Positions 45,587 through 50,482 of a DNA stretch of 64,000 bases are shown in pieces. Source of the DNA: Pseudobdellovibrionaceae bacterium. GTDB taxonomy: Bacteria > Bdellovibrionota > Bdellovibrionia > Bdellovibrionales > Bdellovibrionaceae. Position numbers and translations under genes: made by a program. Under the pieces are notes generated by a model. It did no database searches. It was not told where the DNA came from and worked only from the letters and a program-made list of their open reading frames with translations. The stretch spans positions 372,001 through 436,000 of the forward strand of contig JAHBUW010000001.1 of assembly GCA_019637875.1 (NCBI GenBank), given 5' to 3'. Numbering within the stretch: the first letter of the stretch is position 1; every line of letters starts with the position of its first letter.

Positions 45587-47881
45587 TCAGAAGCGCGGAT
45601 CTTTTTCGACGCCTTCCGCGCGCATCATCACGATCGAAGGATCCGTGTCGGGCGGAATGACGACCTCTTCGGGTCGCAGCGACGCGGGGAAGATGAAGTC
45701 TTCGGTCGGACGATGCTCTGAAAATTCACGCATGACCTGAAGCCAAACCGGAAGGGCGCCGCCACCGCCGGTCAAACCGTGGGACTGCGGCTGATCGTAG
45801 CCGACCCACACCAGCGTCAGATCGTAGGGCGTGAAGCCCGCGAACCAGGCGTCTTTGTAGTCCGAGGTCGTGCCGGTCTTTCCGGCGGACACCCACTTGA
45901 AACCCGACGCTTTGACGGCGCGGCCCGTGCCGCTGCGATTGGTTTCTTTCATGATGCCGAGGACCATACCCGCGGCATCCGCATCGTAGATTTTTTCGGG
46001 CTCTTCGAGCGGCAGAGTTTCGCTGGTGCCGTCGGCGAAAACCAAAGCCTCGAGCAGGCGCGGACGCAGGCGTTCGCCCATCCGCGCGAGGGCGATGTAG
46101 GCTTCGGCGATTTCGATGGGGCGCAGATCCATCGCGCCCAAAAGCAGGCTGGGGACTTTCGGAATTTCGCTTTGCACGCCCGCCGCGTGGAAGCGCTCGA
46201 TGACGTCGTCCAGATCGCCACGCATGCCGAGAATGGCGGTCGACGCGTTCAAGCTGTTCTTCAACGCGTAGTTGAGCGTCACTTCGCCATGGAACTTTTT
46301 GTCGTAGTTCTCGGGACTCCAGGATTTTTTGTAGATGGGAAAGCTGACTTTTTCGTCGTTGATCAGGCTCAGCGGATTCAGCGACGCATCCTTTTCGAAG
46401 GCATTCAAGTAAACGAAAGGTTTGGCGAGCGAGCCGACCTGGCGTTGCGCGTCCCAGATGCGGTTGAACGGACTTTTCCGAAAGCCGCGTCCGGCGACGG
46501 CGTTCGTGATGTTGCCGGTTGCGAGATCGATGGTCAGAACCAAACCTTCGAGCCCCACGCCCTTTTCCTTCAGCGCCTTGATCTTGGGGTTCTTTTCCTC
46601 CAACGAAGCCAAGTGCTCGTTCAACGCGTTCTGCGCGCGTTCTTGGCGGCGGGGGCGCATCGTCGTGAAGACGTTCGTGCCTTCGAGCGCGTAACCCGCG
46701 CGTTTCAGCTCGCGCTCGGCGACTTCGATGAAGTAGGGAGCCGAGTCCGAGATGGCGGGCCGAGAATTCTTCGGCAGCGGAAGGGCGAGCGCCGCGGTCT
46801 TTTCGTCGGCCGAGATGAAGTCGTGTTCAACCATCTTGTCGAGCACGATCTCGAGACGTTTCGCCGCGTTTTCGGGTTGGCGGAAGATATCGAATTTACC
46901 GGGCGAGTTGAGCACCGTCGCGAGCAGCGCGCACTCTTGGACGTTCAAATCCACGAGGCGTTTCTGGAAGTAGTACTGCGAAGCGGCCTGGTAACCGCGC
47001 ACCTGGAAGGGGCCGCTCTGACCGAGATAGATGATGTTCAGATAGATCTCGAAAATACGATCTTTCGAAAGATTCGATTCGAGGATCAAGGCCATCGCGA
47101 ACTCTTTCAGTTTGCGCTTCATGGTCTTTTCGGAGTTCAGGAAGAAGTTTTTCACCATCTGCTGCGTGATGGTGGAGCCGCCTTGCGCGAAACGTCCGCG
47201 CGAGACGTTCACGATCACCGCGCGGGTCAGGGCTTTCCAGTTCACGCCGGAGTGTTCAAGGAAGCGGGGGTCTTCAATCGCGAGCACGGCATTCAGGCAC
47301 GAGGTCGGGATTTCGCCCAGCGGAGCCCACTCTTGCAGAAGGGGTTCTCCTTCCACGAACTGCGCGATGCGTGTCGGTTCGCGCAGGGCTTTGTTGCGCG
47401 GTTGCCATGTGGCGTCCTCGCGCTCTTGCGCCCAGACATCGAGGATCACGTTCTCGGCATTGAGAACTAAAGATTGTGTTCGCAATTTCACGATTTCGGG
47501 ATGCAAACTTTCGCCAACACGAAAGTTGAAACAGCGCACGCTGGGGCCACCGCTTTCGCCCTCAAAGTCCGAACTGTCGTAGGTTTGCGGCAAATGTGTG
47601 CAATCGCTTTCCGCGAAAGTCTTCGGCGGAAGTTCGAGGGCGTTCGCCGCAGGTTGATATCCGGTGCGGCGCAAGAATTCGGTGAGCTGTGGGATTGTCC
47701 ACACATCGCCGCGATCGAAAGCTTCGGGTGGGGACCAGAAGGTGGTGGGTGCCAGAAACTCGCGGTTTTCGAGACGATTCTGCATCTCGCGATCGAGTCG
47801 AACGTAACCCCACACCGCACCGGCTAAAAGAACCACACTCAGACTGCTCGCGACAATCGCGACAAGGCGCCACGTTTTCAT
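45587..47881 (-). CDS. Bifunctional penicillin-binding protein (PBP1b-like)
   Basis: A 764-residue class A PBP that polymerises glycan strands and cross-links peptides in the periplasm. TM helix at about 5-25. The N-terminal UvrB-like/UB2H-type region is followed by the GT51 domain with AIEDPRFLEHSGVNW and GGSTITQQMVKNFFL. The transpeptidase has S484-x2-K487 (GSLAKP), S543-L-N545 and K668-TG (AGKTGTTSDYKDAWFAG), all intact. The order and spacing fit E. coli PBP1b. It is convergent with the DUF1287 gene and divergent from the DUF507 pair. Confidence 0.93.
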   Translation of the reverse strand: MKTWRLVAIVASSLSVVLLAGAVWGYVRLDREMQNRLENREFLAPTTFWSPPEAFDRGDVWTIPQLTEFLRRTGYQPAANALELPPKTFAESDCTHLPQTYDSSDFEGESGGPSVRCFNFRVGESLHPEIVKLRTQSLVLNAENVILDVWAQEREDATWQPRNKALREPTRIAQFVEGEPLLQEWAPLGEIPTSCLNAVLAIEDPRFLEHSGVNWKALTRAVIVNVSRGRFAQGGSTITQQMVKNFFLNSEKTMKRKLKEFAMALILESNLSKDRIFEIYLNIIYLGQSGPFQVRGYQAASQYYFQKRLVDLNVQECALLATVLNSPGKFDIFRQPENAAKRLEIVLDKMVEHDFISADEKTAALALPLPKNSRPAISDSAPYFIEVAERELKRAGYALEGTNVFTTMRPRRQERAQNALNEHLASLEEKNPKIKALKEKGVGLEGLVLTIDLATGNITNAVAGRGFRKSPFNRIWDAQRQVGSLAKPFVYLNAFEKDASLNPLSLINDEKVSFPIYKKSWSPENYDKKFHGEVTLNYALKNSLNASTAILGMRGDLDDVIERFHAAGVQSEIPKVPSLLLGAMDLRPIEIAEAYIALARMGERLRPRLLEALVFADGTSETLPLEEPEKIYDADAAGMVLGIMKETNRSGTGRAVKASGFKWVSAGKTGTTSDYKDAWFAGFTPYDLTLVWVGYDQPQSHGLTGGGGALPVWLQVMREFSEHRPTEDFIFPASLRPEEVVIPPDTDPSIVMMRAEGVEKDPRF

Positions 47882-47935: not shown

Positions 47936-48214
47936 ATGAAATTGACGCCTTTGCAGATGCAAAAGTTGGCTGAAAAGGTACTGGCTGCCTGGAAGGCGAA
48001 CAAGGTCGTGACTTTGAAGGTTGATGAACCCGAAGTCCTCCGGGCCGCGGTCGCGGCGGTGCAACTCGACTATCAGCGCGAGGCCGCGTTGGACGTCGAG
48101 GTGAACAAGATGCTGGATCAGCTCGAACGCTCGAATCCTGGTGAATTCCAGCGCTTCAAAATGTTTCCCATGATCAAGCAGAAGCTCGCGAAGGAAAGGA
48201 AGATCGTTTTATGA
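47936..48214 (+). CDS. DUF507 protein, first copy
   Basis: A 92-residue, mostly helical protein of the DUF507 family, beginning MKLTPLQMQKLAEKVLAAWK and containing RAAVAAVQLDYQREAALDVE. The family has no known function. SD GAGGAAAA precedes the ATG. Its stop overlaps the start of a second DUF507 gene (ATGA), so the two are translated together and may form a heterodimer. Confidence 0.85.
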   Translation: MKLTPLQMQKLAEKVLAAWKANKVVTLKVDEPEVLRAAVAAVQLDYQREAALDVEVNKMLDQLERSNPGEFQRFKMFPMIKQKLAKERKIVL

Positions 48215-48486
48215 TCATTTCCGAAGATCGCCAAAGTCACCTCGCGCACATGATCACCGACAAAGTTTACGACGACGATCTCGTCGATTTCAGTGATGAC
48301 GAACTGGCACTCCGTATCGCGAAGAAGGCGATCGCCGAATTCGTGAAAGAAGATGTCGACATCGACCTCGCCGCGCGCGAGAAGGTCGCTTCGCTCAAAC
48401 GCGGAGTCGTCGAGAACAGCCCGGAGTGGGACGTCCTCTACAAGAAATATTACGAAGAAGAGAGAAATCGTCGTGGCCAAGGCTAA
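48211..48486 (+). CDS. DUF507 protein, second copy
   Basis: A 91-residue DUF507 protein: MIISEDRQSHLAHMITDKVY, a central acidic segment and a C-terminal SLKRGVVENSPEWDVLYKKY. It is a diverged tandem copy of the preceding gene. The last 14 bp overlap the start of the GroES-domain gene. Tandem DUF507 pairs are seen in related genomes; their role is unknown. Confidence 0.85.
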   Translation: MIISEDRQSHLAHMITDKVYDDDLVDFSDDELALRIAKKAIAEFVKEDVDIDLAAREKVASLKRGVVENSPEWDVLYKKYYEEERNRRGQG

Positions 48487-49045
48487 ACCGGCAAAACAGA
48501 AGAACAAAAAAACAGCGGCCCCCAAAGCCGCGAAAAAGACCGCGCCCAAAGCGGCGAAAAAAGTCGCGGCCAAACCCGCGAAGAAAGCCGTGAAAAAAGC
48601 GGCGGCTCCCAAAGGAGCGAAGGTCATCAAGCTCCCGGTGAAGAAAAAAGCCGCCGCGCCCGCACCGGCCAAAACGCCGGCTCCGAAGGGCCCGCATTTG
48701 AAGCTCGTTGTCGACAACGCGAAGAAGCCGGCGCCCAAAGGCGATTGGTCGAAAATTCTGACTCCCCTGGACGACCGTGTTTTGGTTTTGGTTGAAGCCG
48801 GTGAACGGGTGACCCCGGGAGGTCTTTTCATTCCCGATACGGCATCGATGACGGGGAATCACCGCGGTACGGTCGTGAGCGTGGGCTCGGGTCACCGCAC
48901 GAAGAAGGGCCAGTTGCGCCCCCTCGAATTGAAAGTCGGCGACCAGGTGTTGTTCAGCGAATACGCGGGCACCGAAGTGAGCCTTGAAAATCAGAACTTT
49001 AAAATCCTGCGCGAGACCGACATCCTCGGACTGGTCACGAAGTAA
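48473..49045 (+). CDS. GroES-domain protein with Lys/Ala-rich N-terminal tail
   Basis: A 190-residue protein in two parts. Residues 1 to about 85 are a tail of Lys, Ala and Pro with KAAKK-type repeats (KKTAAPKAAKKTAPKAAKK), resembling histone H1-like bacterial proteins. Residues about 95-190 are a GroES/Cpn10 fold with LTPLDDRVLVLVEA, TPGGLFIPDTASM, GTVVSVGSGHRTKKG and LKVGDQVLFSEYAGTEV. GTG 48473 starts MAKAKPAKQK and overlaps the second DUF507 gene by 14 bp. No groEL is adjacent. The tail could bind DNA, RNA or polyanions, or target the co-chaperonin; this is inference. Confidence 0.85.
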   Translation: MAKAKPAKQKNKKTAAPKAAKKTAPKAAKKVAAKPAKKAVKKAAAPKGAKVIKLPVKKKAAAPAPAKTPAPKGPHLKLVVDNAKKPAPKGDWSKILTPLDDRVLVLVEAGERVTPGGLFIPDTASMTGNHRGTVVSVGSGHRTKKGQLRPLELKVGDQVLFSEYAGTEVSLENQNFKILRETDILGLVTK

Positions 49046-49060: not shown

Positions 49061-50482
49061 ATGAAGACACAAACCTGGTTCCGGAACTCTCTTTTGGCTC
49101 TGTTGACGATGGCGACGACGACGGCGCAGGCCCTCTCGCTCGATTGGACCGGTCACTACCGTTTCGAATACACGCAGATCGAATCGACGACGCTCGGAAA
49201 TCCGAAAAATCCGAAAGCCTATTTCCTGCATAACCTGGTGCTCTCCCCCCGCGTGATCGCGGCGGACGGCATCGAGGTGGTTGCGCAGTTCTCGGTGCTG
49301 GGGAATGCGAACTATCCCGGCTCGATGGCGGGCCAATCGTTCGGGATCGCGGCGCCCACGGCTCCGGCCGGATCGAGTGTCATGGGACGTAACGCCGGTG
49401 TATCCAATCTGGAAGTGCGCCAATTGTACCTTTCGTACAACCAAGAGTACGGTCAGTTGATCGCGGGCCGCGCGCCCGTCGAGTTCGGCCTGGGCATGAC
49501 CTACAACGCGGGCAACGGTCCGTTTGACGTCTGGGGCGATACGCACGATCTCGTCGGTTACAAGTTTGTCGTTGGCAACCTCTCGTTCATGCCGATGATC
49601 GGTAAACCCTACGACCCCTCGCTTTCCGCGGGCGGCGACGTGACCGATGTCATGCTCGATATCACCTACAACAACGAAGAGACCGAATCCTTGTTCGCGA
49701 TTTTCTCGCAGCAGCGGACGTCGGGTGATCAGTCGAACGATGCGGGCAGCTATCTTGCGGGCACGCAAACCCGCGCTTACAACGTGCGGAACGTGAATCT
49801 GCTGATCGGTCGCGGTTGGGAAAGCTTCAAGTTCAAACTCGAAGCGGGCTTTGCGGACGGCGGAACCGGCATGGACATCGGCGGCGAAGAGCAAAAGGCG
49901 AACGGTTACGGCATCGTGACCGAGCTTGAGTTCCCGCGCCAGAACAGCAACTGGGATTGGAAGCTTCGTGCGGGCGTCGTCAGCGGCGACAACCCGACTT
50001 CGAACAACTTCGAAGGCTACGCGCTTCATCGCAACTACAACGTCGCGTTCCTGATGTTCAATCACCCCATGGGCGGTTACGATTTGTTCCGTTCGTACTT
50101 CCAGCGTCAGCGCAGCCCCGCGTGCACGACCGCGCCTTGCGCTCCCTATGCGAACGACAACGCGCTCGACGAAGAAGTGGTTTCGAACACGATCTTCCTG
50201 AACCCGTCGGTGAACTACAAACTCGGCGACCGTTGGAGCCTGCATAACAACTTCGTGTACGCTCAGTTGCAGGTGAACTCCTCGACCGTCGCGGGGAACG
50301 ATATCAGCAAGGATTTGGGTTTCGAATGGGACATCGCGGCCGTATATCAGCCGCACCCGCGTTTCCAATGGGTGAACCAAGTGGGACTGTTGTTCCCGGG
50401 TTCGGCTTGGAAAGAGGGCAACGTCGATCGTGACGCCGCCTTCACTTATGGATTTCAGACGAAAGCCGCGATCAGTTTTTAA
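49061..50482 (+). CDS. Predicted outer-membrane beta-barrel protein
   Basis: A 473-residue exported protein. Signal peptide MKTQTWFRNSLLALLTMATT (cleavage near AQA, about residue 24), then alternating aromatic strands, many Tyr, Asn and Gly residues, and a C-terminal YGFQTKAAISF ending in Phe, as outer-membrane barrels do. No porin family is recognised with certainty; alginate-export-like or hydrocarbon-type barrels are possible. ATG 49061 has AGAGGAG upstream (49046-49052). It is followed by a very strong terminator. Confidence 0.8.
   Translation: MKTQTWFRNSLLALLTMATTTAQALSLDWTGHYRFEYTQIESTTLGNPKNPKAYFLHNLVLSPRVIAADGIEVVAQFSVLGNANYPGSMAGQSFGIAAPTAPAGSSVMGRNAGVSNLEVRQLYLSYNQEYGQLIAGRAPVEFGLGMTYNAGNGPFDVWGDTHDLVGYKFVVGNLSFMPMIGKPYDPSLSAGGDVTDVMLDITYNNEETESLFAIFSQQRTSGDQSNDAGSYLAGTQTRAYNVRNVNLLIGRGWESFKFKLEAGFADGGTGMDIGGEEQKANGYGIVTELEFPRQNSNWDWKLRAGVVSGDNPTSNNFEGYALHRNYNVAFLMFNHPMGGYDLFRSYFQRQRSPACTTAPCAPYANDNALDEEVVSNTIFLNPSVNYKLGDRWSLHNNFVYAQLQVNSSTVAGNDISKDLGFEWDIAAVYQPHPRFQWVNQVGLLFPGSAWKEGNVDRDAAFTYGFQTKAAISF

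Follow-up and report, generated by a model that had tools for sequence, protein, structure and literature searches.

Alternative lids that serve a shared chaperonin through an altered architecture, as we propose below for GroES2, are known from the chloroplast (Cpn20/Cpn23) and from T4 (gp31), and in these it is the ring or the roof that has changed, by tandem domains or by a roof loop that is altered or missing; we know of no Lys-rich tail on any of them. Tails of that composition belong instead to H1-like proteins. In Pseudomonas, AlgP and PhaF use K/A/P tails to bind DNA and position polyphosphate (polyP) or PHA granules, with AlgP associating with polyP granules and needing its tail for their spacing (PMC9239181). 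Chlamydia Hc2 (PMC2848022) and other H1-like proteins also have Lys-rich regions of variable length, as does the protein described here, but they are stand-alone DNA-binding proteins whereas our tail is fused to a co-chaperonin. In B. bacteriovorus, groES2 (bd3349) was assigned by Lambert et al. 2012 to an internal Met rather than to the start of its 224-aa ORF because the region before that Met was repetitive (PMC3464611).

Similar to Bd3349, the gene analysed here is a second groES that lies away from groEL. Its product carries a tail which resembles those of AlgP and PhaF in being Lys/Ala/Pro-rich, strongly positive and predicted to be disordered, although the latter are C-terminal (in AlgP, KPAA repeats behind a helical domain) and the GroES2 tail is N-terminal on the GroES domain. 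The published form of Bd3349 leaves the tail out, whereas we find it to be part of the protein throughout the order. We found no described case of a Lys-rich GroES extension in the literature, nor, in the literature searched, a tethered co-chaperonin of the sort considered below.

The groES2 gene and its operon

The window (the whole 64,000-nucleotide stretch of DNA analysed) contains the following features at this locus.

45587..47881, minus strand: penicillin-binding protein (transglycosylase/transpeptidase), divergent conserved neighbour (profile search; synteny)
47936..48214, plus strand: DUF507a, N-terminal half of DUF507, upstream operon gene (Pfam profile; synteny)
48211..48486, plus strand: DUF507b, C-terminal half of DUF507, with a 14-nt overlap with groES2 (Pfam profile, overlap measurement; synteny)
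48454..48464, plus strand: Shine-Dalgarno (SD)-like GAAGAAGAGAG of groES2, within the end of DUF507b (sequence; anti-SD duplex energies; conserved in relatives)
48473..49045, plus strand: groES2, co-chaperonin with a Lys/Ala/Pro-rich N-terminal tail, 190 aa, GTG start at 48473, TAA at 49043-49045 (Pfam match; start and frame backed by selection and SD analyses)
48473..48751, plus strand: N-terminal tail, ~93 residues, predicted disordered (composition; pLDDT ~50 without secondary structure; purifying selection on homologous tails)
48758..49042, plus strand: GroES (Cpn10) domain, residues 96-190 (Pfam PF00166; PDB sequence matches; fold match to GroES structures)
48818..48835, plus strand: mobile-loop motif GGLFIP at the position of the GroEL-binding tripeptide (alignments, column comparison)
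48890..48922, plus strand: roof hairpin GHRTKKGQLRP, with K-K in place of the GroES1 E-D at E. coli positions 50-51
49061..50482, plus strand: TIGR04551-like protein, a weak match below the family cut-off, directly downstream of groES2 (profile search; neighbour of groES2 in relatives)

The original prediction for this locus was a full GroES fold behind about 85 Lys/Ala/Pro residues, without a groEL beside it and overlapped with two DUF507 genes, and all three of these points hold. Pfam Cpn10 matches residues 96-187 of the groES2 product (E 1.3e-26; 92.9 bits, cut-off 21.1) after a tail of ~93 residues; no groEL adjoins the gene, the single groEL of this genome being on another contig beside an ordinary groES; and the overlaps measure 4 nt between DUF507a and DUF507b and 14 nt between DUF507b and groES2. 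In a 95-residue count the tail is 32% K, 27% A and 14% P with 2 acidic residues and a net charge of +28, and nowhere else in the 64-kb window is there a comparable acid-poor, Lys-rich stretch. By composition, and by disorder in the structural model, it groups with the H1-like K/A/P tail proteins (AlgP/PhaF, Hc2), but no Pfam family matches it significantly and so homology to them is not indicated. When the tail was used to search its own genome the sole match was groES2 itself, a weak test for low-complexity sequence.

The gene order of divergent penicillin-binding protein, DUF507a, DUF507b, groES2 and downstream gene is common among relatives; the TIGR04551-like gene follows in 47/47 GroES2 loci, and an overlap of 8-17 nt between DUF507b and groES2 is kept in 35/36 of the loci tested. 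The TIGR04551-like gene also adjoins DUF507 where groES2 is absent. DUF507a and DUF507b each match one half of the DUF507 profile. At locus L209 (G115) the two form one continuous frame, with 181 profile positions in one ORF, so the pair seen elsewhere has the look of a full-length DUF507 that was split. The partnership with DUF507 that the overlap had implied fared less well. The genus Bdellovibrio has no DUF507 match among those listed, though it has kept the tailed GroES2, and DUF507 is present in many genomes without groES2; because of these two observations the two are separable, and DUF507 is weakened as an obligate partner. One member of the order (G039; 99% complete, 2.1 Mb) has no GroES or GroEL match, yet has DUF507 and the downstream protein.

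A divergent GroES lineage in the Bdellovibrionales

GroES2 was found in 47/60 relatives, most of which are metagenome assemblies. The original prediction had named absence of the tail from close homologues as evidence that would count against a fusion, and instead all 46 GroES2 genes with an intact 5' end encode one. With the window gene included these tails span 48-193 residues (median 94), and their medians are 33% Lys, 19% Ala, 6% Pro, a net charge of +31 and one acidic residue. A search for the same fusion in other Bdellovibrionota, as had been proposed, succeeded throughout the Bdellovibrionales relatives that have GroES2 and failed in the other classes of the phylum, where the GroES proteins listed are about 100-130 residues long and the second copies 97-132; among these proteins we therefore rejected a wider spread of tailed GroES in the phylum. 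Outside Bdellovibrionota no Lys-rich GroES tail was seen among the best 80 loci, such tails occurring only on contigs of Bdellovibrionota type. Provisionally, the tailed GroES2 is restricted to the order Bdellovibrionales.

In our tree the GroES2 sequences make up one clade (99/93); GroES1 lies outside it, among the ordinary bacterial GroES. The window gene is very probably the Bdellovibrionales ortholog of Bdellovibrio groES2 (Bd3349), an assignment made from the length and internal-Met description of that gene (PMC3464611) and from closely related Bdellovibrio genomes rather than from the HD100 record. It falls in the GroES2 clade and has neighbours in common with G006-like genomes, and loci of the genus Bdellovibrio share with it the same downstream and divergent neighbours as well as the same Lys-rich upstream frame.

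Similar to other GroES/Cpn10 proteins (PF00166), GroES2 has the full domain, above the curated Pfam score, with a mobile loop of Gly-Gly followed by the hydrophobic GroEL-binding tripeptide, and the motif GG[LI][YIF][IL] is present in nearly all of 71 GroES2 sequences. The AlphaFold model, of modest quality overall (pTM 0.45), renders the GroES fold with confidence and leaves the tail unstructured (pLDDT ~50), and Foldseek matched it to GroES and Hsp10 structures. The roof β-hairpin is also present and aligned, but its charge is reversed: E. coli positions 50-51 are acidic (E/D) in 28/28 GroES1 and are K in 60/71 and 69/71 GroES2, respectively, and position 55, for the most part Leu in GroES1, is R/K in GroES2. 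Charges beside the mobile loop also differ between the two. NCBIfam equivalog and subfamily cut-offs for GroES are missed (best scores 91.7 against 136 and 90.6 against 96). Unlike ordinary GroES, then, GroES2 has an N-terminal tail and a basic roof hairpin, lies in a separate clade and away from groEL, and scores below the NCBIfam cut-offs; as judged from its sequence, it is a divergent paralogue outside the curated GroES equivalogs.

Possible roles of a tailed lid

From its conserved residues GroES2 is most likely a lid, and the likeness in composition to AlgP and PhaF makes a tether the most likely role for its tail. We give about an even chance to the combined reading, that GroES2 serves the only GroEL of the cell as a second, specialised lid and that its tails, together with the basic roof, hold some chaperonins on a polyanion. 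Seven subunits would form a GroES-type ring and bind GroEL via the conserved mobile loop, with seven disordered Lys-rich tails hanging outside the dome. GroEL has a cavity that holds ~60 kDa, and since the seven tails of the window protein amount to 66 kDa (7 x 9.5 kDa), and to about twice this in the longest homologues, they should be outside. Tails and a roof changed from acidic to basic could then bind nucleoid DNA, RNA or polyphosphate granules, so that a subset of GroEL folding chambers would be tethered there. A tether to nucleic acid or polyphosphate, as originally predicted, is plausible by analogy and fits the basic roof. The more specific version, in which the lid docks chambers on the nucleoid or on polyphosphate granules via its seven H1-like tails and splits the GroEL pool into free and tethered fractions, we hold more tentatively, at somewhat under even chances. 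Disordered Lys-rich segments are not peculiar to nucleic-acid binding, and the H1/AlgP likeness is one of composition with no tail family match behind it; moreover, because the domain scores below the NCBIfam cut-offs, lid function could itself be altered.

As for polyphosphate among the possible ligands, PPK1 is present in 55/60 relatives, the genome of the window included. However, no PPK1 match was found in G004 and G042, which are 98-99% complete and have GroES2, and if these absences are real polyP is not the sole ligand, which opposes a polyP-only model. The proposed tether would act at about the time of septation and of nucleoid or granule partition, since the Bdellovibrio ortholog comes on late during growth within the prey. 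Its expression at 2-4 h of predation, seen by RT-PCR only (PMC3464611), suggests a late-growth role. One GroEL with two lids, one of them bearing seven tails, would make a testable case of a chaperonin localised by its own lid, and if this is true the tails could hold GroEL on DNA, RNA or polyphosphate.

The best-surviving alternative, which we nevertheless consider unlikely, keeps the tail at the chaperonin: it would tune the machine by binding to the acidic exterior of GroEL, or by altering lid affinity, cycling or substrate capture, with no polyanion tether. A single GroEL common to two lids (nearly all genomes surveyed have just one groEL), the differing charges that flank the mobile loop and a tail whose length varies freely while its charge is kept are all consistent with this, but tails of up to 193 residues far exceed the apparent need of such a contact, and tuning predicts no particular Lys/Ala/Pro composition independent of length. 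G067 was the only surveyed genome with two full-length GroEL copies. Less probable again, to the point of being doubtful, is that GroES2 caps another machine, or is an H1-like nucleoid protein for which the GroES ring is just a means of multimerisation. Capping of ClpP by co-chaperonins has precedent (the PDB sequence and fold matches include 7ekq, Clp protease with Cpn11/20/23), and both the shortfall against NCBIfam and the divergent loops of some GroES2 (for example L066) could be read this way; against it, the GroEL-binding loop is kept in nearly all members and the operon holds no second partner machine.

Start site of groES2 and selection on the tail

Tethering and tuning both presuppose that the tail is made. 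Across 10 close GroES2 gene pairs the tail has a dN/dS of 0.06-0.26 and the GroES domain one of 0-0.05, values from a counting method applied to low-complexity sequence with some pairs near saturation, and changes in the tail fall at third codon positions 316 times versus 121 and 100 at the others. The start GTG-GCN-AAR and its SD (of GAAAGGA or GAAAGGG type) are conserved in 24 genomes of the genus Bdellovibrio, where no such conservation is seen for internal starts; the G006-type internal Met is missing from the near relative L082. Over 63 loci the median anti-SD energy is -6.0 kcal/mol at the upstream start compared with -1.3 at internal candidates and -1.2 at all tail codons, and the upstream start has the best energy in 58/63. 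Loci that lack an upstream DUF507 (e.g. L066, L077 and L078) have a different SD, yet have it ahead of the same Lys-rich start, and the tail is therefore not a by-product of the overlapping DUF507b. In 17 genomes, of which 3 belong to another family within the class, the downstream gene comes immediately after DUF507b and both the tail and the GroES domain are missing, and no tailless GroES2 or orphan tail was found among the relatives examined.

Taken together, selection and the conserved start indicate translation, so groES2 is not a chance ORF; on the same grounds the full-length tailed protein is its real product, and tail and GroES domain are inherited as one unit. A functionless tail arising by neutral low-complexity expansion would account for its repeat-like sequence and variable length but is very improbable, given its presence in all intact members across the order, its near lack of acidic residues, its low dN/dS and the want of any tailless form. 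Least credible of all is an untailed product from an internal start with the repetitive frame upstream left untranslated, as Lambert et al. 2012 chose for Bd3349, or two separate proteins with a start at the GroES domain, the other outcome that the original prediction had named as counting against a fusion: G006-like Bdellovibrio do have an internal ATG after a weak SD, but the tail frame is under purifying selection, upstream start and SD are conserved, that ATG is missing from L082 and most others, any ATG within the 25 codons ahead of the domain occurs in only 13/63 loci, and the window gene has none before its domain. This reverses the published choice of start, which had removed the most distinctive part of the Bdellovibrio GroES2.

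Bdellovibrio HD100 is genetically tractable. Most tails of its genus (L080-L103) have an HL(V/L)K motif ~17 residues ahead of the GroES domain, possibly a short linear motif, and two others (L116:3575-4297 and L132:3303-3908) differ from the rest in having a hydrophobic, Ala/Val-rich segment close to the domain, which might make a membrane or helix contact.
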